From: Rhodobacterales bacterium 32-67-9
GTDB lineage: Bacteria > Pseudomonadota > Alphaproteobacteria > Rhodobacterales > Rhodobacteraceae
Reading direction: 5' to 3'
Length of the DNA stretch: 64,000 bases
NCBI GenBank assembly: GCA_002280515.1
Contig: NCEA01000001.1
Span: 41,762-105,761, forward strand
A program made the position numbers and the translations under genes. Position 1 is the first letter of the stretch, and each line of letters begins with the position of its first letter. Positions 16,156 to 64,000 of this stretch are shown here, in pieces. The notes below the pieces were generated by a model. The model was given only the letters and a program-made list of their open reading frames with translations. It ran no database searches and was not told the origin of the DNA.

Positions 16156-16463
16156 TCAAGCCTTCACTGCGATCATTTCGGCGCTCTTTTGGTATTTCGC
16201 CCGGTCGAGCCATGCCGGATCGCCCCGCCCCAGCCTGGTCCATCGGGAATGCGGACCTTGCCGTTCCGGACGGCGAAGGGATCGCCCCGGAACACCCGCC
16301 GCGGCCAGGGGCAATAACCGTCGCCCTCGATTGAAAATTCGAAGTATTTCCCGGCGTTGAAGGTGGAGCACTGGCCCCAACCGGTGGCGCCATCCTCGGC
16401 GGTGACTCGTGTGAAACGGACGTGTTCGTCACAAAAGGTCTCGACGGACGAGATCTTCACCAT
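16156..16463 (-). pseudogene. Remnant of a mandelate racemase/muconate lactonizing enzyme family gene
   Basis: Starts MVKISSVETFCDEHVRFTRV behind an AAGGGGAG ribosome site and continues TAEDGATGWGQCSTFNA, the normal first 37 residues of this enolase-superfamily group. The frame then jumps directly to GKYFEFSIEGDGYCPW and NGKVRIPDGPGWG, which in the family is the extreme C-terminus. The capping and barrel domains between them, roughly 290 residues with all metal ligands, are missing. A second lesion follows GPGWG: the expected DPAWLDRAKYQKSAEMIAVKA is in another frame and ends at 16156. The product cannot be a working enzyme. Position at the head of the transporter operon suggests that the transporter once served this enzyme's substrate, probably a sugar acid or a related compound. 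A 113-residue frame over the same bases is a shadow. Confidence 0.85.
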
Positions 16464-16606
16464 CCAGGCCCGCTCCCCTTGCCCGACCGTGCGCCGGTCA
16501 AACCGGTGGCAGGCGCTCCGTTCAGTCGTGTCTAAAATGCGTCGTTTCGACACTGGTCCTCAAAACCGACGTTAGACCTTCGAAAAGCGACTTCAAGTGT
16601 TTTTTG

Positions 16607-39870: not shown

Positions 39871-41478
39871 TTAGCCCCCGGTGCGGCTGTCCGCGATCCG
39901 CGCCCCGGCGCGTGCGGACAGCGCCATGATCGTCAGGCCGGGATTGTGGAACGGGTTGGTCGGGAACACTGCGGAATCGGTGACATAGACGTTCGCCGCG
40001 TCGTGCAGCCGGCTCTGCGCATCGGTCACATGCCGCTTCGGGTCGTCGCCCATGCAGGCGCCGCCTGTCTCGTGGATCGACGATCCGGGGATCAGCGCGC
40101 CTTCCGCCGTATAGACCAGGGGCCCGGCCAGTCGGTACGCGAGCTTCGAGACCAGGCTTTCGCGCCCCAGAAGGTCGTCGGGAAGGCCGAACACCTCCGA
40201 CACCTCTTTCAGGCTTTCATTCATGTCGCGGATCATCGCGCGTTCGTTCTCCGAATGCGTCAGCGTGACCTCCGCCACCGGAATTCCCCAGGCATCGCGC
40301 CTCGCGGGGTCGATCTCCACCCGGTTGTCGGCCCGTGGCAGCACCTCGCCGATCGCCATGAAGAACCAGCCCGGTTCCAGTCGCCCGACCGAACCCAGAA
40401 GCGAATAGCCGCGCAGGAAGCCCCGCCCGTCGTTGCCGCCGACATTGCGGAACGAGGGGATGTAGATCCCCGATTGCTGGCCGAAATCGTAAGGATCGTG
40501 GCCCGCCCCCATGCCCTCGATCTCCGGCAGGGTTCCGGCGCGAAAGACCATGAGGTGATCGGAAAGATAGCGCCCGAGATTGCCGGAGGAATTGCCAAGG
40601 CCGTCGGGATGCCGCCCACCCCGCGAATTCAGCAGAATCCGCACGCTTTCGATGGTCGAGGCCGCAACCGCGACATGGCGCGCAGCCACCGTGATCCGCT
40701 CGCGGCTGGCTGCGTCGATATAGGTCACCCCGGTCGCAAGCCCGGTTTGCGCATCGGTCTCGATCCGCTCGACCACCGCGTTCGGACGAAGCTCAAACCG
40801 CCCGGTCGCCTCGGCGGCGGTCAGGGGTGGCGGCCTCCGGTCCGGCATGTGGTGGATGATCCGGCAGGTTGTGGCCGGCCGGTCGGGCCACTTGTCGGCC
40901 ATCTCGGCCAGCAGCCGGCGCTCGGCCCCGGTCAGCGGATGGGGGCCGGAATAGAAGCCGTCGGGCAGGTTCGCGATACCCGCCGCCTCGCCGGTCACGC
41001 CGAGGAATTCCTCGACCCGGGCATACCAGGGCGCGAGGTCGGCGTAGGAGACGGGCCAGCTGTCGCCGAACCCGTCCGCCTCGGCTGCCTTGAGGTCGAG
41101 GTCGGAGATACGGAGCGCATTTCTTCCCCAAAGATGCAGCCGCCCGCCGACCTGCCGCGACCGGTACCAGTTGAAGCGGGCGCCCGCCCCGGTCGTGTAG
41201 GGGTTTTGCCGGTCGTTGAGGAAAAGATGCGCGGTCTGCGGCGTAAAGGACATGCAGCGGGCCTGCACCTGCTGGCCCTTCAGGATCGCCATGACCCGGG
41301 TCAGGATCGAGACCCGGCTGCCGCCTTCGTGATCGGGTGCCGGGAAGTCCGCCCGGGGGTCAAGCTTGCGCCCCGCCTCCAGCATCAGCACGCGCGCGCC
41401 CCGCTCCGCCGCCTCCTTCGCGACCCAGCCTCCCGAGGCGCCCGATCCGATGACGACAAGATCCCAGGGCGCGCTCAT
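39871..41478 (-). CDS. GMC-family FAD oxidoreductase
   Basis: FAD-dependent sugar or alcohol oxidase/dehydrogenase of 535 residues. The N-terminal dinucleotide fold is DLVVIGSGASGGWVAKEAAE followed by RVLMLEAGRKLDPRADFP. The GMC flavin segment YRSRQVGGRLHLWGRNALRI comes next. The C-terminal active-site region contains SSIHETGGACMGDDPKRHVT and ends NPFHNPGLTIMALSARAGAR with the catalytic His/Asn context. It overlaps the glycosyltransferase gene upstream by 4 bases. With the Gfo/Idh/MocA protein it may modify a sugar of the polysaccharide, which is inference from linkage. Confidence 0.85.
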   Translation of the reverse strand: MSAPWDLVVIGSGASGGWVAKEAAERGARVLMLEAGRKLDPRADFPAPDHEGGSRVSILTRVMAILKGQQVQARCMSFTPQTAHLFLNDRQNPYTTGAGARFNWYRSRQVGGRLHLWGRNALRISDLDLKAAEADGFGDSWPVSYADLAPWYARVEEFLGVTGEAAGIANLPDGFYSGPHPLTGAERRLLAEMADKWPDRPATTCRIIHHMPDRRPPPLTAAEATGRFELRPNAVVERIETDAQTGLATGVTYIDAASRERITVAARHVAVAASTIESVRILLNSRGGRHPDGLGNSSGNLGRYLSDHLMVFRAGTLPEIEGMGAGHDPYDFGQQSGIYIPSFRNVGGNDGRGFLRGYSLLGSVGRLEPGWFFMAIGEVLPRADNRVEIDPARRDAWGIPVAEVTLTHSENERAMIRDMNESLKEVSEVFGLPDDLLGRESLVSKLAYRLAGPLVYTAEGALIPGSSIHETGGACMGDDPKRHVTDAQSRLHDAANVYVTDSAVFPTNPFHNPGLTIMALSARAGARIADSRTGG

Positions 41479-42395
41479 GGCTTCTTCGTCACATAGCCCC
41501 AGACCTCACCCAGAATCCAGGAGGTCGTGAGGATCATCGTGTAAGGAAGCGCCTTCAAGTATCTGATCCCCCGACCCTTTTGCATCTGGGTCAAGCCGTG
41601 GCGGACCCAGAGGAGCGGTGGAATCAGCGGACTCATCAGGATCAGCTTCCAGCGCTCGCGCTCAGAGATCGTCATGGTGCGGATATGCCCGAAAAGCCGG
41701 CCCCAGTGGAAGCGTTCGGGGATGAGGTAGGAAAGAGTGCAGGGCGGCCGGCCGTGGAAGATGATCATCTCGTTCGACAGCCAGAGCTTCTCGCCCTTCT
41801 TCATCAGATAATCATGCAGGACCGGCTCGTGGTAGCGTTCCTTCCACAAATGCCGCATTTCCTCAAGGGCTTGGCGGGAATAGCTCACGTTCACGTCCGA
41901 CACCCATTCCGCCGGACCGCTGTGGAACGGCAGGCCGTAGCGGCCGAAATCGGTGAGGTAGAAGGCCCAGTTGAGAAGGCTCGCCGGCTCGCGACACTCG
42001 ATCCCGCCGCCGACCACATGGCAGCCGGTCTCGGCATGGAGGCGCACGATCTGGCGCGCCCAGTCGGCGCGCGGGTGGCCGCGATCCTCGAGAATCGCGA
42101 TGATCCGGCCTTTCGATGCCGCCAGCCCCCGCGCCCGCCGACGGTCATAGAGTTCGTGCAGCCCCGCCTCGGTGGTGATCGGGTGGATCGGCTCGATCCG
42201 GCCGATGTCGAGGAAGGTCACCGTCGGAAACTCTGCCGCCATCGCCGGCACTTCCGGCCGGCTCGCGTCGTAGGGCAGGATCACTTCGTGGCTCGGCGGG
42301 TTGTCGAAGGACGTGACCGCGCGCAGGAAATCGCGCAAGGGTTCGCCGCCGTCGATGATGGTGACGACGATGGAAAGCTCCGGCCCCTCGCTCAC
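41475..42395 (-). CDS. Family 2 glycosyltransferase
   Basis: Probable polysaccharide glycosyltransferase of 306 residues. The N-terminal GT-A fold starts ELSIVVTIIDGGEPLRDFLR. The segment GRIIAILEDRGHPRADWARQ (near residue 97) takes the place of the usual DxD region, with EDR. C-terminal hydrophobic segments near residues 245-300 suggest membrane association. Both ends overlap neighbouring genes by 4 bases, so it is translated with the MocA-type and GMC genes. The acceptor and donor sugars are unknown. Confidence 0.75.
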   Translation of the reverse strand: MSEGPELSIVVTIIDGGEPLRDFLRAVTSFDNPPSHEVILPYDASRPEVPAMAAEFPTVTFLDIGRIEPIHPITTEAGLHELYDRRRARGLAASKGRIIAILEDRGHPRADWARQIVRLHAETGCHVVGGGIECREPASLLNWAFYLTDFGRYGLPFHSGPAEWVSDVNVSYSRQALEEMRHLWKERYHEPVLHDYLMKKGEKLWLSNEMIIFHGRPPCTLSYLIPERFHWGRLFGHIRTMTISERERWKLILMSPLIPPLLWVRHGLTQMQKGRGIRYLKALPYTMILTTSWILGEVWGYVTKKP

Positions 42396-43444
42396 GGCAC
42401 CATTGCCCCAAGGTTCTCCAGCTTAACCGGCAACCCGGTGCGCGCGCTCTCAGTGACCGCCGCCGCCACCTCGACCGCCCGAAGCGCCGCATGACCGTCG
42501 GCGATCCGCAGGCCGGTGCCGCCGTCGGTCAGCGCGATGAACTCCGCCAGCTCCCGCTGGAACGAGGCGAGCGCCGTCGTCTTCCACGACCGCAGCTTCT
42601 CGCGGATCTGGATATCGAGGTAGCGCTTGCGGACGGTGGTCGTCGCCCCTCCGGGTTTCTCCATCGTGATCAGCATGTTCTCCATCGGCGCGTAGGCACC
42701 GCGCACCATGCCGTGCGATCCGTAGACCTCGACCGCGCTCTTGTAGCCCTTCCAGTCGGTCCATGTCGCCTGGTAGATCGCCGGGACGCCCGAGGGCGAT
42801 TTGAAGATCGCCATCGCATTGTCCTCCGACCCCGGCACCTTCCAGACCTTTTCGGTCGCCACGCCGTAGACTTCGGTGATCTCGCCCAGAAGGTGCCGCG
42901 CCATGTCGGTCATGTGGATGCCGACGTCCCAGAGCGCTCCGCCGCCGGATATCTCCGACTTGTATTCCCAGTCGAAGGCGAATTTCGGCAGGCCCTCGTG
43001 GCCGCCATAGACCCGGATATGGTCGATCTCGCCTATCTTTCCACTCTCCATCACGTCCTTCACATAGGCAAAGGCCGGATAGTAGCGCATGTTGAACCCG
43101 GCGCCGAGATGGCGCTTGCCGGCCTTGGCGGCGGCGAGGATGCGGCGGCTACCCTCCACCGTGTGGTGCAGCGGCTTTTCCGACAGGACATGCAGCCCCC
43201 GTTCGAACGCGGCGAGGCACAGGGGTTCGCGAACATGGGCGGGGGTGGAAATCACCACCGCGTCCATCGGCACCGCGAGGAACGAGCCGAGATCGGTGAA
43301 AGCCGGCGCGCCATGGGCCTGCGCGCGCGCCTTTTCCATCGTCATGTCCATGACGGCGGCAAGCTCCGCCTTCGGCTCCGCCAGGATCGTCGCGACCCGC
43401 ATCTGGCCGATCTTGCCCGCCGCCCCGATCACTCCGATCCGCAT
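42392..43444 (-). CDS. Gfo/Idh/MocA-family sugar dehydrogenase
   Basis: NAD(P)-dependent oxidoreductase of 350 residues. The Rossmann N-terminus is MRIGVIGAAGKIGQMRVATI. The family motif appears as GLHVLSEKPLHHTVEGSRRI, where EKP is the conserved triad contributing the catalytic Lys. The second domain contains GGGALWDVGIHMTDMARHLL with the substrate-binding Asp and His. It is the first gene of a three-gene operon with the GT2 and GMC genes. The substrate is probably a sugar or sugar nucleotide, not identifiable from sequence. Confidence 0.85.
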   Translation of the reverse strand: MRIGVIGAAGKIGQMRVATILAEPKAELAAVMDMTMEKARAQAHGAPAFTDLGSFLAVPMDAVVISTPAHVREPLCLAAFERGLHVLSEKPLHHTVEGSRRILAAAKAGKRHLGAGFNMRYYPAFAYVKDVMESGKIGEIDHIRVYGGHEGLPKFAFDWEYKSEISGGGALWDVGIHMTDMARHLLGEITEVYGVATEKVWKVPGSEDNAMAIFKSPSGVPAIYQATWTDWKGYKSAVEVYGSHGMVRGAYAPMENMLITMEKPGGATTTVRKRYLDIQIREKLRSWKTTALASFQRELAEFIALTDGGTGLRIADGHAALRAVEVAAAVTESARTGLPVKLENLGAMVP

Positions 43445-43609
43445 GTGCCGTCCTTCCCGTCCGCCGGCGCGGACGAAGCCCGAATTCCGAAAATCAATGC
43501 AAAGCGGCTAGCATGGCGGCCGGATTCGGGCCAGCCTGCGTGCGCCGGACGGGTTTCAATGGCGCCGGCCTGTGGCTATTCTGCGCTGCGGCGGCAAAGG
43601 GGTGAGGAC

Positions 43610-56490: not shown

Positions 56491-57024
56491 ATGGATTCAA
56501 ACGATCTTCCCCGCCTCGTCTATCTGGTGCTGCTGCTCGCCGTCGTCGGCGGCTATTTCCTGATGGAGAGCCGCCGCAACCTTGGCAAGACCATTGCGAT
56601 CTCGGGCCTTTGGGGCGACATCAGGCGCGGCGCTTTACCGACCGAGGCGGTGGTGCGCGGCGACACGCTCGAAGTGCCGGTGGCCGAGGACGGTCATTTC
56701 TATCTGACGGCGGAGGTGAACGGCACGAAGGTGCTCTTCGTCGTCGATACCGGCGCCTCCGACATCGTGCTGACCGAGCGCGATGCGGAGCGGGTCGGGC
56801 TGAACCCGGCAACACTCAACTACTTCGGCACTGCGATGACGGCGAACGGCCCGGTGGAGACGGCGCCGGTGCGCCTCGGTACGCTGTCGCTGGGCGGTCT
56901 CACCGATACCAACGTGCCGGCGGTGGTAAACGGCGGCGCGCTTGACACTTCTCTTCTGGGGATGAGCTACCTCGGCCGCCACGAGGTCACCTTCACGCGC
57001 GACCGGCTGATCCTGAGGCGTTGA
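56491..57024 (+). CDS. Retropepsin-like clan AA aspartic protease, membrane-anchored
   Basis: A 177-residue protein with an N-terminal membrane helix (LVYLVLLLAVVGGYFLME) and a single aspartic-protease lobe. The catalytic motif is VLFVVDTGASDIVLTERDAE near residue 81, and the second conserved element is TSLLGMSYLGRHEVTFTRD. The single lobe would work as a homodimer, as in retropepsins. It follows the MarC gene by 3 bases. Its last 32 bases overlap the convergent acyltransferase gene. The substrate is unknown. Confidence 0.85.
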   Translation: MDSNDLPRLVYLVLLLAVVGGYFLMESRRNLGKTIAISGLWGDIRRGALPTEAVVRGDTLEVPVAEDGHFYLTAEVNGTKVLFVVDTGASDIVLTERDAERVGLNPATLNYFGTAMTANGPVETAPVRLGTLSLGGLTDTNVPAVVNGGALDTSLLGMSYLGRHEVTFTRDRLILRR

Positions 57025-58063
57025 GGGTCCGGCGGCGCACCGACCGCCACGCTTCCACTGCGAACAGCAGCCCGATTCCGCTGATCACCGCGATACAGCC
57101 GCAAAATGCGAGAAACGCCGGCGTCGACGCGAAGTCCTCGACCGAGGTCAGTTTCCAGAAGATCACGACGACGAATCCGTGCATCAGGTAGATCGGCAAC
57201 GTGGCCCGGCCAAGACGTGTCAGAAGGCCCGGTCCAACCGGCGCTAGCAGGATGAACAGAACCGCGGCCAGCCCCCCAGAGGTGATGGTTGCCACCCGTA
57301 TCAGTGCGGCAGGAACCTGTCCCTGCGCGAAGGCCGCATAAGGGCTGCTTCCGTAGAGCAGTGACAGATCCCAGCCGGCATAGCCGGCAAAGGATGCCAT
57401 CCCGGCAAGCAGCAGGAGTGGACCTGCAGCCCAGACGAATGTCCTCGTTCCGATCCCGGGTACGCTCTTTGCAATCCAGTATCCCGACAGGAACGCCGGA
57501 AAGAAGACCAAGGTCCGAGACAGGCTCAGCGTTCGGTCCACGCCATCGACGTATCCGGCCGCAAGTGCGATGATGATCGCCAGCGGGATCGACACGGCTG
57601 GCTGCAAACGCGCGAAAAGCGGAAACATGGCGCGCCACGCCGCGAGACTGGCGAGAAACCAGAGGATCCAATGCGGCGTCAGAAGACCGCCGACGCGCTC
57701 CGGCGCCAGCTTCGCCAGAAATGGCCAGTAGGCCAGCTGATAGATCACCAGCGGAAACAGCAGCGAGCGCGCAATCCGATCGAGTGTGGTGCCGGCAGGG
57801 GCCGGCCGCGCGACCATTCCGCTGATCATCGCAAAGGCAGGGATATGGAATAGGTAGATTCCGGCATAGACGGCGGAAGCGATACGGTCGGAAAACGTCG
57901 CCACTTCTATCAAGTGGCCCCATATCACCAGCAGGATAAGCATTCCCTTCGCGTTGTCGTAGCGAAGCGTCCTGCCGGTGTCCGGCTTGCCGGGGTGCGC
58001 GAGGCTTGCGCTCTGTGCGTCGGTGCTTTGCAGGCCAGGTCGGGCCAAACGATCTTCGCTCAC
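56993..58063 (-). CDS. Acyltransferase-3 family membrane protein (OpgC/OafA-like)
   Basis: Integral membrane protein of 356 residues with about ten hydrophobic segments. It has the acyltransferase-3 opening RTLRYDNAKGMLILLVIWGH, in which the His near residue 50 is the family's conserved catalytic residue, then YLFHIPAFAMISGMVARP. Members transfer acetyl or succinyl groups to periplasmic glycans or O-antigen. A GTG start at 58063 overlaps the holC stop (GTGA), and GGGG precedes it. Its 3' end overlaps the protease gene. Codon usage looks less extremely GC-biased than its neighbours, and it separates holC from the ABC-F group, suggesting insertion. Confidence 0.8.
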   Translation of the reverse strand: MSEDRLARPGLQSTDAQSASLAHPGKPDTGRTLRYDNAKGMLILLVIWGHLIEVATFSDRIASAVYAGIYLFHIPAFAMISGMVARPAPAGTTLDRIARSLLFPLVIYQLAYWPFLAKLAPERVGGLLTPHWILWFLASLAAWRAMFPLFARLQPAVSIPLAIIIALAAGYVDGVDRTLSLSRTLVFFPAFLSGYWIAKSVPGIGTRTFVWAAGPLLLLAGMASFAGYAGWDLSLLYGSSPYAAFAQGQVPAALIRVATITSGGLAAVLFILLAPVGPGLLTRLGRATLPIYLMHGFVVVIFWKLTSVEDFASTPAFLAFCGCIAVISGIGLLFAVEAWRSVRRRTLNASGSAGRA

Positions 58064-58524
58064 CCCCCATTCTCCGCCTTTTTCTGCCAGCCGCCGCCCT
58101 CCTCGCTCCAGTATTGCGCGGTGATCCCGGCGCCGGTCAGCGCCTTCCACTGTCCCCGCGCCTGGTCGAGCGCGGCCGGGTCGTTGCCGTCGAAGAGGAT
58201 GCAGACCCGCTCCAGCCCGGCGCAGTCGCCGGCCGTCACCTCGGCCCCGTCCACCGCCATCAGGCATTGCGCGCCGTTCGGGATGCCGGTCCCGGTGGTC
58301 AGCAGGATCGGCTGGTCGGCGTCATGCCTGCCGCCCGCGACCCCATGCGGCAGGAAGCTTTCGTCGCCGCCCTGCCAGAGCTTCTGGTCGAGCCAGTCCA
58401 GCCGCGCCGCGTCGGTGCCGCGCACCACGACATGCCAGCCCGCCTGCAACGATTTCGCGAGGAGAAGCGGCAGCGTCGCCTCCAGGGGCGAGCGGGTCAG
58501 ATGATAGAAGAGCGCGGCGCCCAT
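58060..58524 (-). CDS. holC: DNA polymerase III chi subunit
   Basis: Accessory subunit of the clamp loader that links to single-strand binding protein. The 154-residue protein starts MGAALFYHLTRSPLEATLPL with LLAKSLQAGWHVVVRGTDAA. Family features LDWLDQKLWQGGDESFLPHG and PILLTTGTGIPNGAQCLMAV follow, and WKALTGAGITAQYWSEEGGG lies near the C-terminus. It overlaps the pepA stop by one base and runs into the acyltransferase start. The pepA-holC pairing is conserved in proteobacteria. Confidence 0.93.
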   Translation of the reverse strand: MGAALFYHLTRSPLEATLPLLLAKSLQAGWHVVVRGTDAARLDWLDQKLWQGGDESFLPHGVAGGRHDADQPILLTTGTGIPNGAQCLMAVDGAEVTAGDCAGLERVCILFDGNDPAALDQARGQWKALTGAGITAQYWSEEGGGWQKKAENGG

Positions 58525-60116: not shown

Positions 60117-61247
60117 GTGTCGAAATTCGACAGATATTTGCTGTCGCAGCTGATGATGCTCTTCGGCTTCTTCGCGCTGATCCTCGTCTCGGTCTACTGG
60201 ATCAACCGGGCGGTCGCGCTCTTCGACCAGCTCATTTCGGACGGGCAGTCGGCCTGGGTGTTCCTTGAATTCACCGCGCTCACCCTGCCGAACGTGATCC
60301 GGCTCGTCCTGCCCGTCGCCGCCTTCGTCGCCTCGGTCTACGTGACCAACCGGCTCTCGGCGGAAAGCGAGCTTGTGGTGATGTCTGCGACCGGGTTCTC
60401 GCCGTTCCGCCTCGCCCGGCCGGTTGTCTATTTCGGCCTCATCGTCACGCTGATGATGGCGATCCTCATGCATGTATTGGTGCCGGCGAGCCGCGCCAAG
60501 CTGTCCGAACGGCGTGGCGAGATCGCCGAGAACGTGGCGGCGCGGTTCCTGACCGAGGGTGCCTTCCTGCATCCGGCCGACGGAATCACCTTCTATATCC
60601 GCAAGATCACGCCCCTCGGCGAATTGCAGGACATCTTCCTCGCCGATGCGCGCATGGCCGACAAGAGCACGATCCACACCGCCGAACGCGCGCTTCTGGT
60701 GAAAAGCGAGGACGGCCCCAAGCTGGTGATGTTCGACGGCATGGCCCAGATCCTCGACGGTACGACCGCGGCGCTCGCGGTCACGCGGTTCGCCGATTTC
60801 TCCTACGATATCGGCGCGCTGATCGGCGCCGGCGCGGAGCGGCCACCGTCGGTGGAGGAGATGCCGACACTGACCCTTTTGCGATCCGACGACGCCGCGG
60901 CAGAAAAGCTGGGCACGACGCGGAGCGAGATGCTCCTCGAAGGTCACGGCCGGCTTTCGCAGCCGTTCCTCGCCCTCGTCGCGGCGCTCATCGGGTTTTC
61001 GACACTTCTCACCGGCGGGTTCAGCCGCTTCGGCCTCTGGCGCCAGATCGGGCTTGCCGTCGGGCTTCTGGTCTTCGTCCAGTTCCTCGCGAACGGCGCG
61101 ACGAGCCTCGTGACCGGGCGCGCGGCGCTCTGGCCGGTGCTTTATGCGCCGATCGTCGCGGGGCTGGCGCTGACCGCGCTGTTCCTGACCATGGCGGGGC
61201 GGGTGCGCCGGGTCCGGCACGGACTGGCCTCGGCGGTGGCGTCATGA
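60117..61247 (+). CDS. lptF: LPS export permease LptF
   Basis: Inner-membrane permease of the LptB2FGC transporter that extracts LPS from the inner membrane. The 376-residue protein starts at GTG (60117): MSKFDRYLLSQLMMLFGFFA, with AGGAG about 12 bases upstream. Six membrane segments flank a large periplasmic beta-jellyroll (about residues 120-265). RLSAESELVVMSATGFSPFR is the coupling region that contacts LptB. It overlaps lptG by 4 bases. Confidence 0.93.
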   Translation: MSKFDRYLLSQLMMLFGFFALILVSVYWINRAVALFDQLISDGQSAWVFLEFTALTLPNVIRLVLPVAAFVASVYVTNRLSAESELVVMSATGFSPFRLARPVVYFGLIVTLMMAILMHVLVPASRAKLSERRGEIAENVAARFLTEGAFLHPADGITFYIRKITPLGELQDIFLADARMADKSTIHTAERALLVKSEDGPKLVMFDGMAQILDGTTAALAVTRFADFSYDIGALIGAGAERPPSVEEMPTLTLLRSDDAAAEKLGTTRSEMLLEGHGRLSQPFLALVAALIGFSTLLTGGFSRFGLWRQIGLAVGLLVFVQFLANGATSLVTGRAALWPVLYAPIVAGLALTALFLTMAGRVRRVRHGLASAVAS

Positions 61248-62341
61248 CGCTTTCGCTCTATATCGCGCGGCGCTTCCTTGCCACGCTGGCAATGGTCTTC
61301 GGCGGTTTCTTCGTGCTGCTCTACCTCATCGACATGATCGAGCAGATCCGCCGTTTCGCCAGCGCCGACCTCGGCCTTGGTGCCGCCGCCGAACTGGCCG
61401 CGCTGAACACGCCGCAGGCGGTCTACCGGATCCTGCCGATGATCGTGATCCTCGCCTCGATCGCGCTCTTCCTTGCCCTTGCCCGGTCGTCCGAACTCGT
61501 GGTGATCCGCGCCGCCGGCCGCTCCGCTCTCAGGATGCTCGTCGCACCGCTCGTCGCCACGCTGCTCGTCGGCGCAGTCGCCGTCGCCGTCCTCAACCCC
61601 ATCGTCGCAGGCACGTCCAAGCGTTACGAGGTGCGCGCCAACCAGCACAAGCTCGGCGATGGCAATGTGCTGTCCGTCACCCGCGAGGGGCTCTGGCTGC
61701 GCCAGGGCGGGCCCGAGGGCCAGACCGTGATCCGCGCGGCGCGGTCGAATTTCGACGGGACCGTGCTTTACGACACGACGTTCGTCGCCTTCGCCGAGGC
61801 GAGCGGCCCCATCGCCCGCGTCGAAGCAGCCGAGGCGACGCTGACCGACGGGGCCTGGCTTTTGACCGACGCGAAGGAATGGAGCTTCGTGCCGGGTGGC
61901 AACCCCGAACGCGAGGCGGTGCGGCACGACACGATGCGGCTGCCGTCCGAACTGACCGCCGACCAGATCCGAGACAGTTTCGGCACGCCCTCGACCGTGC
62001 CGATCTGGGACCTGCCGGCCTTCATCTCGGGGTTGGAGCGGGCCGGCTTTTCGGCGCGCAAGCACAATGTCTGGTTCCAGATGGAACTTGCGCTGCCGCT
62101 GCTTCTTGCCGCGATGGTGCTGGTCGGCGCGGGGTTCACCATGCGCCACGCCCGTTCGGGCAGGACCGGGATCATGGTGCTTCTCGCCGTGGTCTCGGGC
62201 TTCGCGATCTTCCTTCTGCGCAACTTCGCCCAAGTGCTCGGCGAAAACGGCCAGATCCCCGTCCTCCTCGCAGCCTGGAGCCCGCCGGTCGCGGCGCTTC
62301 TTTTGTCGCTGACCTTGCTTTTGCACCTTGAGGAGGGCTGA
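61244..62341 (+). CDS. lptG: LPS export permease LptG
   Basis: Partner permease of LptF, 365 residues. It starts MTLSLYIARRFLATLAMVFG, overlapping the lptF stop (ATGA). The LptB coupling region is ARSSELVVIRAAGRSALRML near residue 85. The periplasmic jellyroll occupies about 125-265, and three C-terminal helices follow. The stop is immediately followed by the lptD ATG, completing an lptF-lptG-lptD operon. Confidence 0.94.
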   Translation: MTLSLYIARRFLATLAMVFGGFFVLLYLIDMIEQIRRFASADLGLGAAAELAALNTPQAVYRILPMIVILASIALFLALARSSELVVIRAAGRSALRMLVAPLVATLLVGAVAVAVLNPIVAGTSKRYEVRANQHKLGDGNVLSVTREGLWLRQGGPEGQTVIRAARSNFDGTVLYDTTFVAFAEASGPIARVEAAEATLTDGAWLLTDAKEWSFVPGGNPEREAVRHDTMRLPSELTADQIRDSFGTPSTVPIWDLPAFISGLERAGFSARKHNVWFQMELALPLLLAAMVLVGAGFTMRHARSGRTGIMVLLAVVSGFAIFLLRNFAQVLGENGQIPVLLAAWSPPVAALLLSLTLLLHLEEG

Positions 62342-64000
62342 ATGCGCCGGCTGATCGCTACCCTCGCCCTCTGGCTTCTCGCCCTGCCGGCGCTGGCGCA
62401 GGACGCCGCGACGCTGGTCGCCGACTCGTCGACGGCACCGGGACCGTGGTGCTGGCCGATTCCGCCGAACTGTCGCGCGACCTGACGAACGGCATCCTCA
62501 GCGGCGCCCGCATGGTACTCGACGACCAGTTGCAGATCGCGGCAACCGAATTGGCGCGGATCGACGGGCGCTTCACCCGGCTCAGCCGTGTCGTCGCCTC
62601 GTCCTGCCAGGTCTGCCCGTCGAACCCGACACCCTTGTGGGAAATCCGCGCCCGCCGGGTGGTCCATGACCAACGCGAGCGACAGCTTTATTTCGACCAT
62701 GCGCAGTTCCGCGTCGCCGGTCTGCCGATCTTCTACGTGCCGCGCCTCAGGATGCCGGACCCGACGCTGAAACGCGCGACCGGCTTTCTCATGCCGCGCT
62801 TCCGGACCACCACTGCGCTGGGGCCGGGCCTCAAACTGCCATATTTCTTCGCCATCGGCGACAGCCGCGACCTGACGCTGACGCCCTATATCTCGGCCAG
62901 CAAGACGCGCACGCTCGAATTCCGCTACCGGGAGGCGTTCCGCACCGGTTCGGTCGAGGTCAATGGGGCGCTGACCCGCGACGACCTCTTGCCGGACGAG
63001 ACCCGAGGCTATCTCTTCGCGACCGGCGAATTCGACCTGCCCCGCGACTTCAAGCTCGATTTCGCCATCGAGGCCGTGAGCGACGACGCCTATCTCCTCG
63101 ACTACGGCATCGACGACATCGACCGGCTGGCAAGCGGCGTCTCGGTCACCCGGACGCGGCGCAACGAACATATCGACGCGCGGATCTTCCGCTACTGGTC
63201 AATCCGCGCGGGCGACGACAACTCGGTCCTGCCGGTGCTGGTCGGCGACCTCACCATCCAGCGCCGGTTCACGCCGCGCTATCTCGGCGGCGAAGGACAG
63301 TTCAGCTTCGACCTGCACAGCCAGCGCCGGTCCTCCTCGGTCGCGATCGACGCCAATGGCGACGGCGTGACCGACGGTCGCGACCTCAGCCGCGCGACCG
63401 CCACGCTCGACTGGCGACGCAACTGGGTGCTGGGCAACGGCATGGTCGTTTCGGGCGCCACCGAGGTGACGGCCGATTTCTACGCGATCAGCGAGGACGC
63501 GGCCTTTCCCGGCACCGTCACCCGGCTGACCCCCTCCGCCGCGATCGAGCTTCGCTGGCCCTGGGTCAGACCGGCCTCACGGGGCGGCGCCACCCATGTG
63601 CTGGAGCCCGTCGTGCAGCTGGTCTGGAGCCCCGACAGCACCGACACGGTCCCGAACGAGGACAGCCAGATCGTGAATTTTGACGAAGGCAACCTCTTCG
63701 GGTTCAACCGCTTTCCCGGCGCCGACCGGCACGAGCTTGGCCAGCGCCTGAACGTCGGCCTGTCGTGGACCCGCTACGACCCGAAGGGATGGTCGCTCGG
63801 GGTGACGGCGGGGCGGGTCTTCCGGGAAAGCGACCTCGGCCAGTTCTCCGCCGCCTCCGGGCTTGACGGCACCGCGTCTGACTGGCTTGTCGCGACGCAG
63901 TTCCAGACCGCCGAAGGGCTCGACATCACCAACCGCGCGGTGTTCGACGATTCCTTCAGCGTCAGCCGCGAGGAATTGCGCATCGCCTTCGACGCCGACC
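62342..64000 (+). pseudogene. lptD: LPS assembly outer-membrane protein LptD, broken near the N-terminus (3' end outside the window)
   Basis: ATG at 62342 directly after the lptG stop gives a normal signal peptide, MRRLIATLALWLLALPALAQ, then DAATLVADS. The frame then runs into nonsense and a TGA at 62483-62485 (47 residues). The true continuation, VDGTGTVVLADSAELSRDL, starts at about 62428 in another frame and stays open to base 64000. It includes the conserved SRVVASSCQVC, TPLWEIRARRVVHDQRERQL and GFLMPRFRTT. Compared with family members, roughly 45 residues of the OstA/LptA-like jellyroll are missing and the join is out of frame. LptD inserts LPS in the outer membrane. Either a real inactivating deletion or an assembly/sequencing error is possible. 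Confidence 0.8.

Follow-up and report, generated by a model that had tools for sequence, protein, structure and literature searches.

LptD and the release factor RF1 are essential, and a few Gram-negative bacteria survive without LPS. The LptD encoded in the window (the whole 64,000-nucleotide stretch of DNA analyzed here) is of the type found in Defluviimonas-type Rhodobacteraceae, being 90% identical to the protein of one metagenome-assembled genome (L036, MAG WOFB24) and 89% identical to that of a second relative (G013). It shares with them the signal peptide block, the barrel, the upstream lptF-lptG pair, and the next gene. These relatives keep a segment of 46 codons plus 1 nt in lptD, whereas the lptD of the window lacks the segment and is out of frame. 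The relatives that could be named by their LptD belong to Defluviimonas and other Rhodobacteraceae, and several are metagenome bins. Spurious pseudogenes arising from genome assembly have been documented in general (Cooley and Wright 2024, PMC11017572). We compared the lptD lesion with relatives and with other genes of the same draft genome (G000), and we are highly confident that it is a draft-assembly artefact that does not exist in the organism itself.

The lptD locus and its missing segment

The window corresponds to G000:C42:41762-105761. Its base 64000 is the last base of contig C42 (105,761 bases), and this contig end falls within lptD. The features of the locus are as follows.

60117..61247, plus strand: lptF, LptF/LptG-type permease, intact (Pfam PF03739, E 2.5e-62, 211 bits, profile 1-349 of 353)
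61244..62341, plus strand: lptG, LptF/LptG-type permease, intact (Pfam PF03739, E 8e-64, 216 bits, profile 2-352 of 353)
62342..62425, plus strand: 5' piece of lptD with signal peptide and first mature residues (82% identity to G013 LptD residues 1-28)
62424..62426, plus strand: probable false join where 139 nt of the relatives are absent, with a junction ambiguity of 1 nt (alignment to relatives)
62426..64000, plus strand: remaining lptD in another frame, cut at contig end 64000 and resuming on C33 after about 25 missing nt (PF04453, 158.7 bits, curated cut-off 22.4; profile positions 2-340 of 384 are covered, the contig end truncating the match)

Gene order is the same as in relatives. The lptF and lptG genes lie directly upstream, and the end of lptD and the next gene, probably surA by its likeness, follow on contig C33 in the order seen in G013.

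The lptD reading frame opens at 62342 (MRRLIATLALWLLALPALAQDAATLVAD...) and closes with a stop at 62485 after 47 aa. The downstream frame stays open over 556 codons, starting at 62332 and running to the window end, and its first ATG, GTG, or TTG codon is a GTG at 62446, 3' of any signal peptide. With 46 codons plus 1 nt absent, the N-terminal OstA-like domain is not complete in one frame behind the signal peptide. Downstream of the break, the barrel part is 89% identical to G013 and stays in a single frame as far as the contig end. When lptD was aligned to G013, the closest relative among the genomes searched (about 87% nucleotide identity here), the match stopped at 62425 and resumed at once 139 nt further on in G013. 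The break lies after 62424 or 62425, an ambiguity of 1 nt, which corresponds to C42:104185/104186. Comparison with a second genome, G010, also gave a loss of 139 nt. Since 139 equals 3 x 46 + 1, the loss is out of frame. An earlier note on this DNA had proposed an out-of-frame deletion near the 5' end of lptD, had estimated it at 130 to 140 bases, and had described lptF and lptG as looking intact. The alignments bear out the deletion and its size, and both permeases match nearly the full PF03739 profile. The note's view that the residues LVADS survive is correct up to "AD"; the "S" already lies to the right of the break, and the relatives continue differently after "AD."

Among 40 relative loci tested, the missing segment was carried in one frame and without a stop in the 39 that gave a match, the exception being L046, a C-terminal fragment. 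At least 44 of the 46 residues were aligned in 36 of these 39 loci, while the other three were partial, their match beginning inside the segment. The 40 loci include the query itself (L019), and some look like one genome fetched twice.

We considered whether a shortened but working LptD could be rescued by translational frameshifting or by an internal start. The downstream frame, open from 62332, does overlap the upstream frame as far as 62485. Against such a rescue, the interval 62335-62485 contains neither an XXXYYYZ heptamer nor a long homopolymer, and we rejected programmed frameshifting for lack of the slippery heptamer. The first internal start codon, GTG 62446, comes only after the signal peptide, and slippage would not bring back the 46 residues, which the 39 matching loci retain in full or as far as the match extends. 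The chance that either route yields a functional protein seems close to nil. We also rejected replication slippage between direct repeats. A degenerate 13-nt repeat, with copies 150 nt apart, flanks the region in L036, but deletion between these copies would remove 150 nt in frame, and the observed loss is 139 nt.

Contig C33 carries, at its end, the C-terminal part of lptD together with the following gene. In the coordinates of the relative, the ends of C42 and C33 do not overlap, and about 25 nt of lptD between them are missing. Judged against relatives, lptD thus appears to be damaged twice, by 139 nt near the 5' end and by about 25 nt at the contig break. Contig C33 has a further peculiarity: its first 8 kb match G013 near 1.67-1.68 Mb, and the sequence beyond about 95 kb corresponds to 2.64-2.68 Mb of that genome, so that G000:C33 near 95 kb would contain either a rearrangement or a misjoin.

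Search for a replacement and the LPS pathway

The earlier note had proposed searching the rest of the genome for a second lptD; a profile search recovered a single LptD in G000. LptD was matched in 40 of the 41 genomes searched, G000 included. When the N-terminal protein of a relative was used as the query against G000, we recovered the known 5' piece and otherwise only two matches with E values of 0.375 and above. The relative's DNA for the missing segment gave short matches only, the best spanning 26 nt (E 9e-4), which is at chance level. We therefore rejected a second copy or a fusion, given one LptD and chance-level matches elsewhere for the missing segment. The LPS genes tested (LptA-like, LptE, LptF, LptG, and LpxC) were all present in G000, the LptA-like protein once. 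Among the genes tested, there were no signs of a genuine lptD loss, such as other LPS genes lost or changed or a second lptD.

Similar losses elsewhere in the draft genome

The draft G000 comprises 3.7 Mb in 60 contigs, with a completeness of 93.64% and a contamination of 2.02%. We surveyed the whole of C42, the whole of C33, and 160 kb of the 241-kb contig C49 by calling genes in the corresponding stretches of G013 and seeking them in G000. Frame changes were scored in 308 orthologues and in-frame gaps of at least 8 aa in 287 best matches. Of 309 orthologues, 300 were readable in a single frame across 88% or more of their length. Seven frame-changing junctions were seen in the 308 orthologues, and those in well-conserved genes affected lptD (139 nt), an M32-type peptidase gene (41 nt), a LysR gene (71 nt), lon (155 nt), and a PBP1A-family gene (107 nt). 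Six in-frame missing pieces were seen in the 287 matches. We kept those in prfA (38 aa, 114 nt), an oxidoreductase gene (33 aa, 99 nt), lon (17 aa, 51 nt), and an aspartic protease gene (14 aa, 42 nt). The total is nine missing pieces of 41-155 nt in eight genes, with flanks of at least 82% identity. The lon loss of 155 nt was also found against a further genome, G001. The labels M32 peptidase, oxidoreductase, mandelate racemase, and acyltransferase are presumptive, and a partial M32 query had no match in NCBIfam.

Several gaps were left out of the nine. These are a mandelate-racemase-like gene (810 nt, 7 nt of ambiguity, a 4-nt frame change, low identity), the gene 'B|79679' (66-68 nt, flanks about 73%), and two gaps in 'A|355357' (flanks 57-60%). 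The single extra in-frame piece in G000 (41 aa, flanks 57%) was also left out. The first of these lies in the window at about 16180-16480 (C42:57941-58242), where a mandelate-racemase/enolase-like remnant lacks about 810 nt relative to G013, with a junction ambiguity of 7 nt, a further 4-nt frame change, and identity below that of its surroundings. From these features it looks like true gene decay.

A tenth loss, of about 128 nt, was found across a gene boundary at C33:22833/22840, and it was also seen against G001. At this site (G000:C33:22833-22840), two adjacent genes are fused into one 392-aa open reading frame. It corresponds to 'B|42048' in the forward list of genes flagged without a frame change; the other flagged gene, 'B|84244', is divergent.

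The losses do not spare core genes. At G000:C33:126484-127422, prfA has lost 114 nt in frame, the GGQ motif included. It is the only RF1 found in G000, and its residues 1-212 and 248-351 were matched, the GGQ falling in the unmatched part. The other release factor hit in G000, 40% identical, is presumably RF2. On the same contig, lon (51 and 155 nt missing) and the PBP1A-family gene (107 nt missing) are apparently broken in the assembly at G000:C33:18353-20522 and 41081-43526. Within the window, a clan AA aspartic protease gene (TIGR02281) at 56491-57024 has an in-frame gap of 42 nt against G013 close to the N-terminal hydrophobic segment, and this is probably another drop-out. Nearby, about 1 kb at window 57020-58059 is absent at the same place in G013 and overlaps a minus-strand acyltransferase-like open reading frame (56993-58267).

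Loss sizes were multiples of three in four of the nine cases (51, 99, 114, and 42 nt, as opposed to 139, 41, 71, 155, and 107), which is close to the expectation without selection. The joins were nearly blunt in the six of the nine that were examined, with an ambiguity of 0-1 nt in five and 2 nt in one. For the lon and prfA joins, the matching pieces in plain BLAST alignments share 5-6 nt, and there may be slight microhomology there. The stretches examined contain no N. We also saw no frameshifts of 1-2 nt in the surveyed G000 orthologues, so that the assembly is otherwise good. Read drop-out caused by hairpins or high G+C was not supported: six missing segments (lptD, M32, LysR, lon 155, PBP1A-family, and 'B|79679') were ordinary, showing neither unusual G+C nor strong folding when compared with random segments.

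When, conversely, G000 genes were sought in G013, two frame entries resulted from 304 orthologues. One was the M32 event again, viewed from the opposite genome, and the other was of 1 nt and lay in a shadow frame opposite lon. Reverse in-frame gaps in 287 matches largely mirrored the forward list. Among reverse flags without a frame change, 'C33|22503' is the tenth loss, 'C33|65832' and 'C33|116504' are divergent, and 'C33|101972' is a counter-example, a 99-aa gene from which a clean 179-nt piece is missing in G013 (G000:C33:102064-102242; G013:C2:2671581-2671583). This piece is spanned in six same-genus genomes (G016, G001, G002, G010, G020, and G004), and its absence in G013 is either real or an error of that genome. 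Missing pieces thus number 10 in G000 versus 1 in G013 (sign test, approximately 0.012 by our own arithmetic).

As small controls, we sought the G013 genes in G010 and G001, covering 200 kb per genome. There were no frame-changing junctions in 73 orthologues (G010) or 50 orthologues (G001), and no in-frame missing pieces in 39 and 26 matches, respectively; one extra 8-aa piece was seen in G010. In the reverse direction, the controls gave one frame entry of 1 nt in 70 orthologues (G010) and none in 43 (G001), with no in-frame gaps of at least 8 aa in 41 and 23 matches. Comparison of G010 with G001 revealed no frame changes in 10 and 9 orthologues. By themselves, the frame changes in G000 and the controls (5/308 versus 0/123) do not differ significantly.

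Readings of the lptD lesion

Four things are observed directly: pieces are missing, they outnumber those of the reverse case, they fall without regard to frame and essentiality, and the contig breaks within lptD. Losses resembling that of lptD were found in unrelated genes irrespective of frame and essentiality, in nine pieces across eight genes plus a tenth. Because the same draft lacks similar pieces of other indispensable genes, the lptD gap is almost certainly an assembly error. Short stretches would have been lost during assembly or in later processing, and the flanks would have been closed up almost bluntly, leaving no run of N. For the exact technical cause, our best guess is the removal of N-runs from scaffold gaps, or faulty closure of such gaps; a local coverage drop-out is another candidate.

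A real deletion would mean a strain or population with an lptD null allele, living without LptD or with a compensating change. Its join is clean but for 1 nt, the downstream barrel is 89% identical to G013 with no other frame change before the contig ends, and the genus may have real deletions that are similarly clean and of comparable length, as with the 179-nt piece that G013 lacks; LPS-less survivors are also known among a few Gram-negative bacteria. Yet only one LptD is present, the barrel shows no decay, the LptA-like protein, LptE, LptF, LptG, and LpxC are kept, and other core genes in this assembly have comparable losses, among them the catalytic motif of RF1. We consider a real deletion highly improbable. 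Even less probability attaches to a strain that truly lacks a working LptD, surviving with no LPS at its surface or exporting it by an unknown route, in which the lesion would be one of several large core-gene deletions produced by an unusual deletion process in the lineage. A cell whose RF1 lacks GGQ is not expected to live. It is not credible that a single living cell combines an RF1 lacking GGQ with broken versions of the PBP1A-family enzyme, Lon, and LptD, whereas all four are accounted for together by a faulty assembly.

Alternatively, a minority or dead-end deletion variant in a strain mixture could have entered the consensus, for example if the genome is a metagenome bin. A 60-contig draft with 93.6% completeness and 2% contamination would be compatible with such a mixture, and several of the named relatives are metagenome bins. 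Independent minority deletions would nevertheless have to win in eight genes, core ones included, which makes this origin exceedingly unlikely.

We return to a draft-assembly drop-out as the preferred explanation, under which the organism, judging by its named relatives a Defluviimonas-type member of the Rhodobacteraceae, most likely has an ordinary, intact lptD. The earlier note had named an assembly or base-calling collapse as the simplest alternative to a real lesion, and the series of like drop-outs in the same draft, including the loss of the catalytic motif of the only RF1 found, supports an assembly collapse. The note's other suggestions, a real lesion with unusual LPS export, a second copy, or a fusion, are not supported, given the single LptD, the chance-level matches, and the presence of the LPS genes tested. 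The segmental losses in core genes of G000 are invisible to its completeness and contamination scores (93.64 and 2.02). A "broken gene" in this draft should be taken as biology only after comparison with further genes of the assembly. The cases that we draw on from PMC11017572 are frameshifts and internal stops, whereas G000 shows segmental losses of 41-155 nt and no 1-2 nt frameshift in the surveyed conserved genes. It resembles those cases in that its genes seem to be broken in the assembly for technical reasons.
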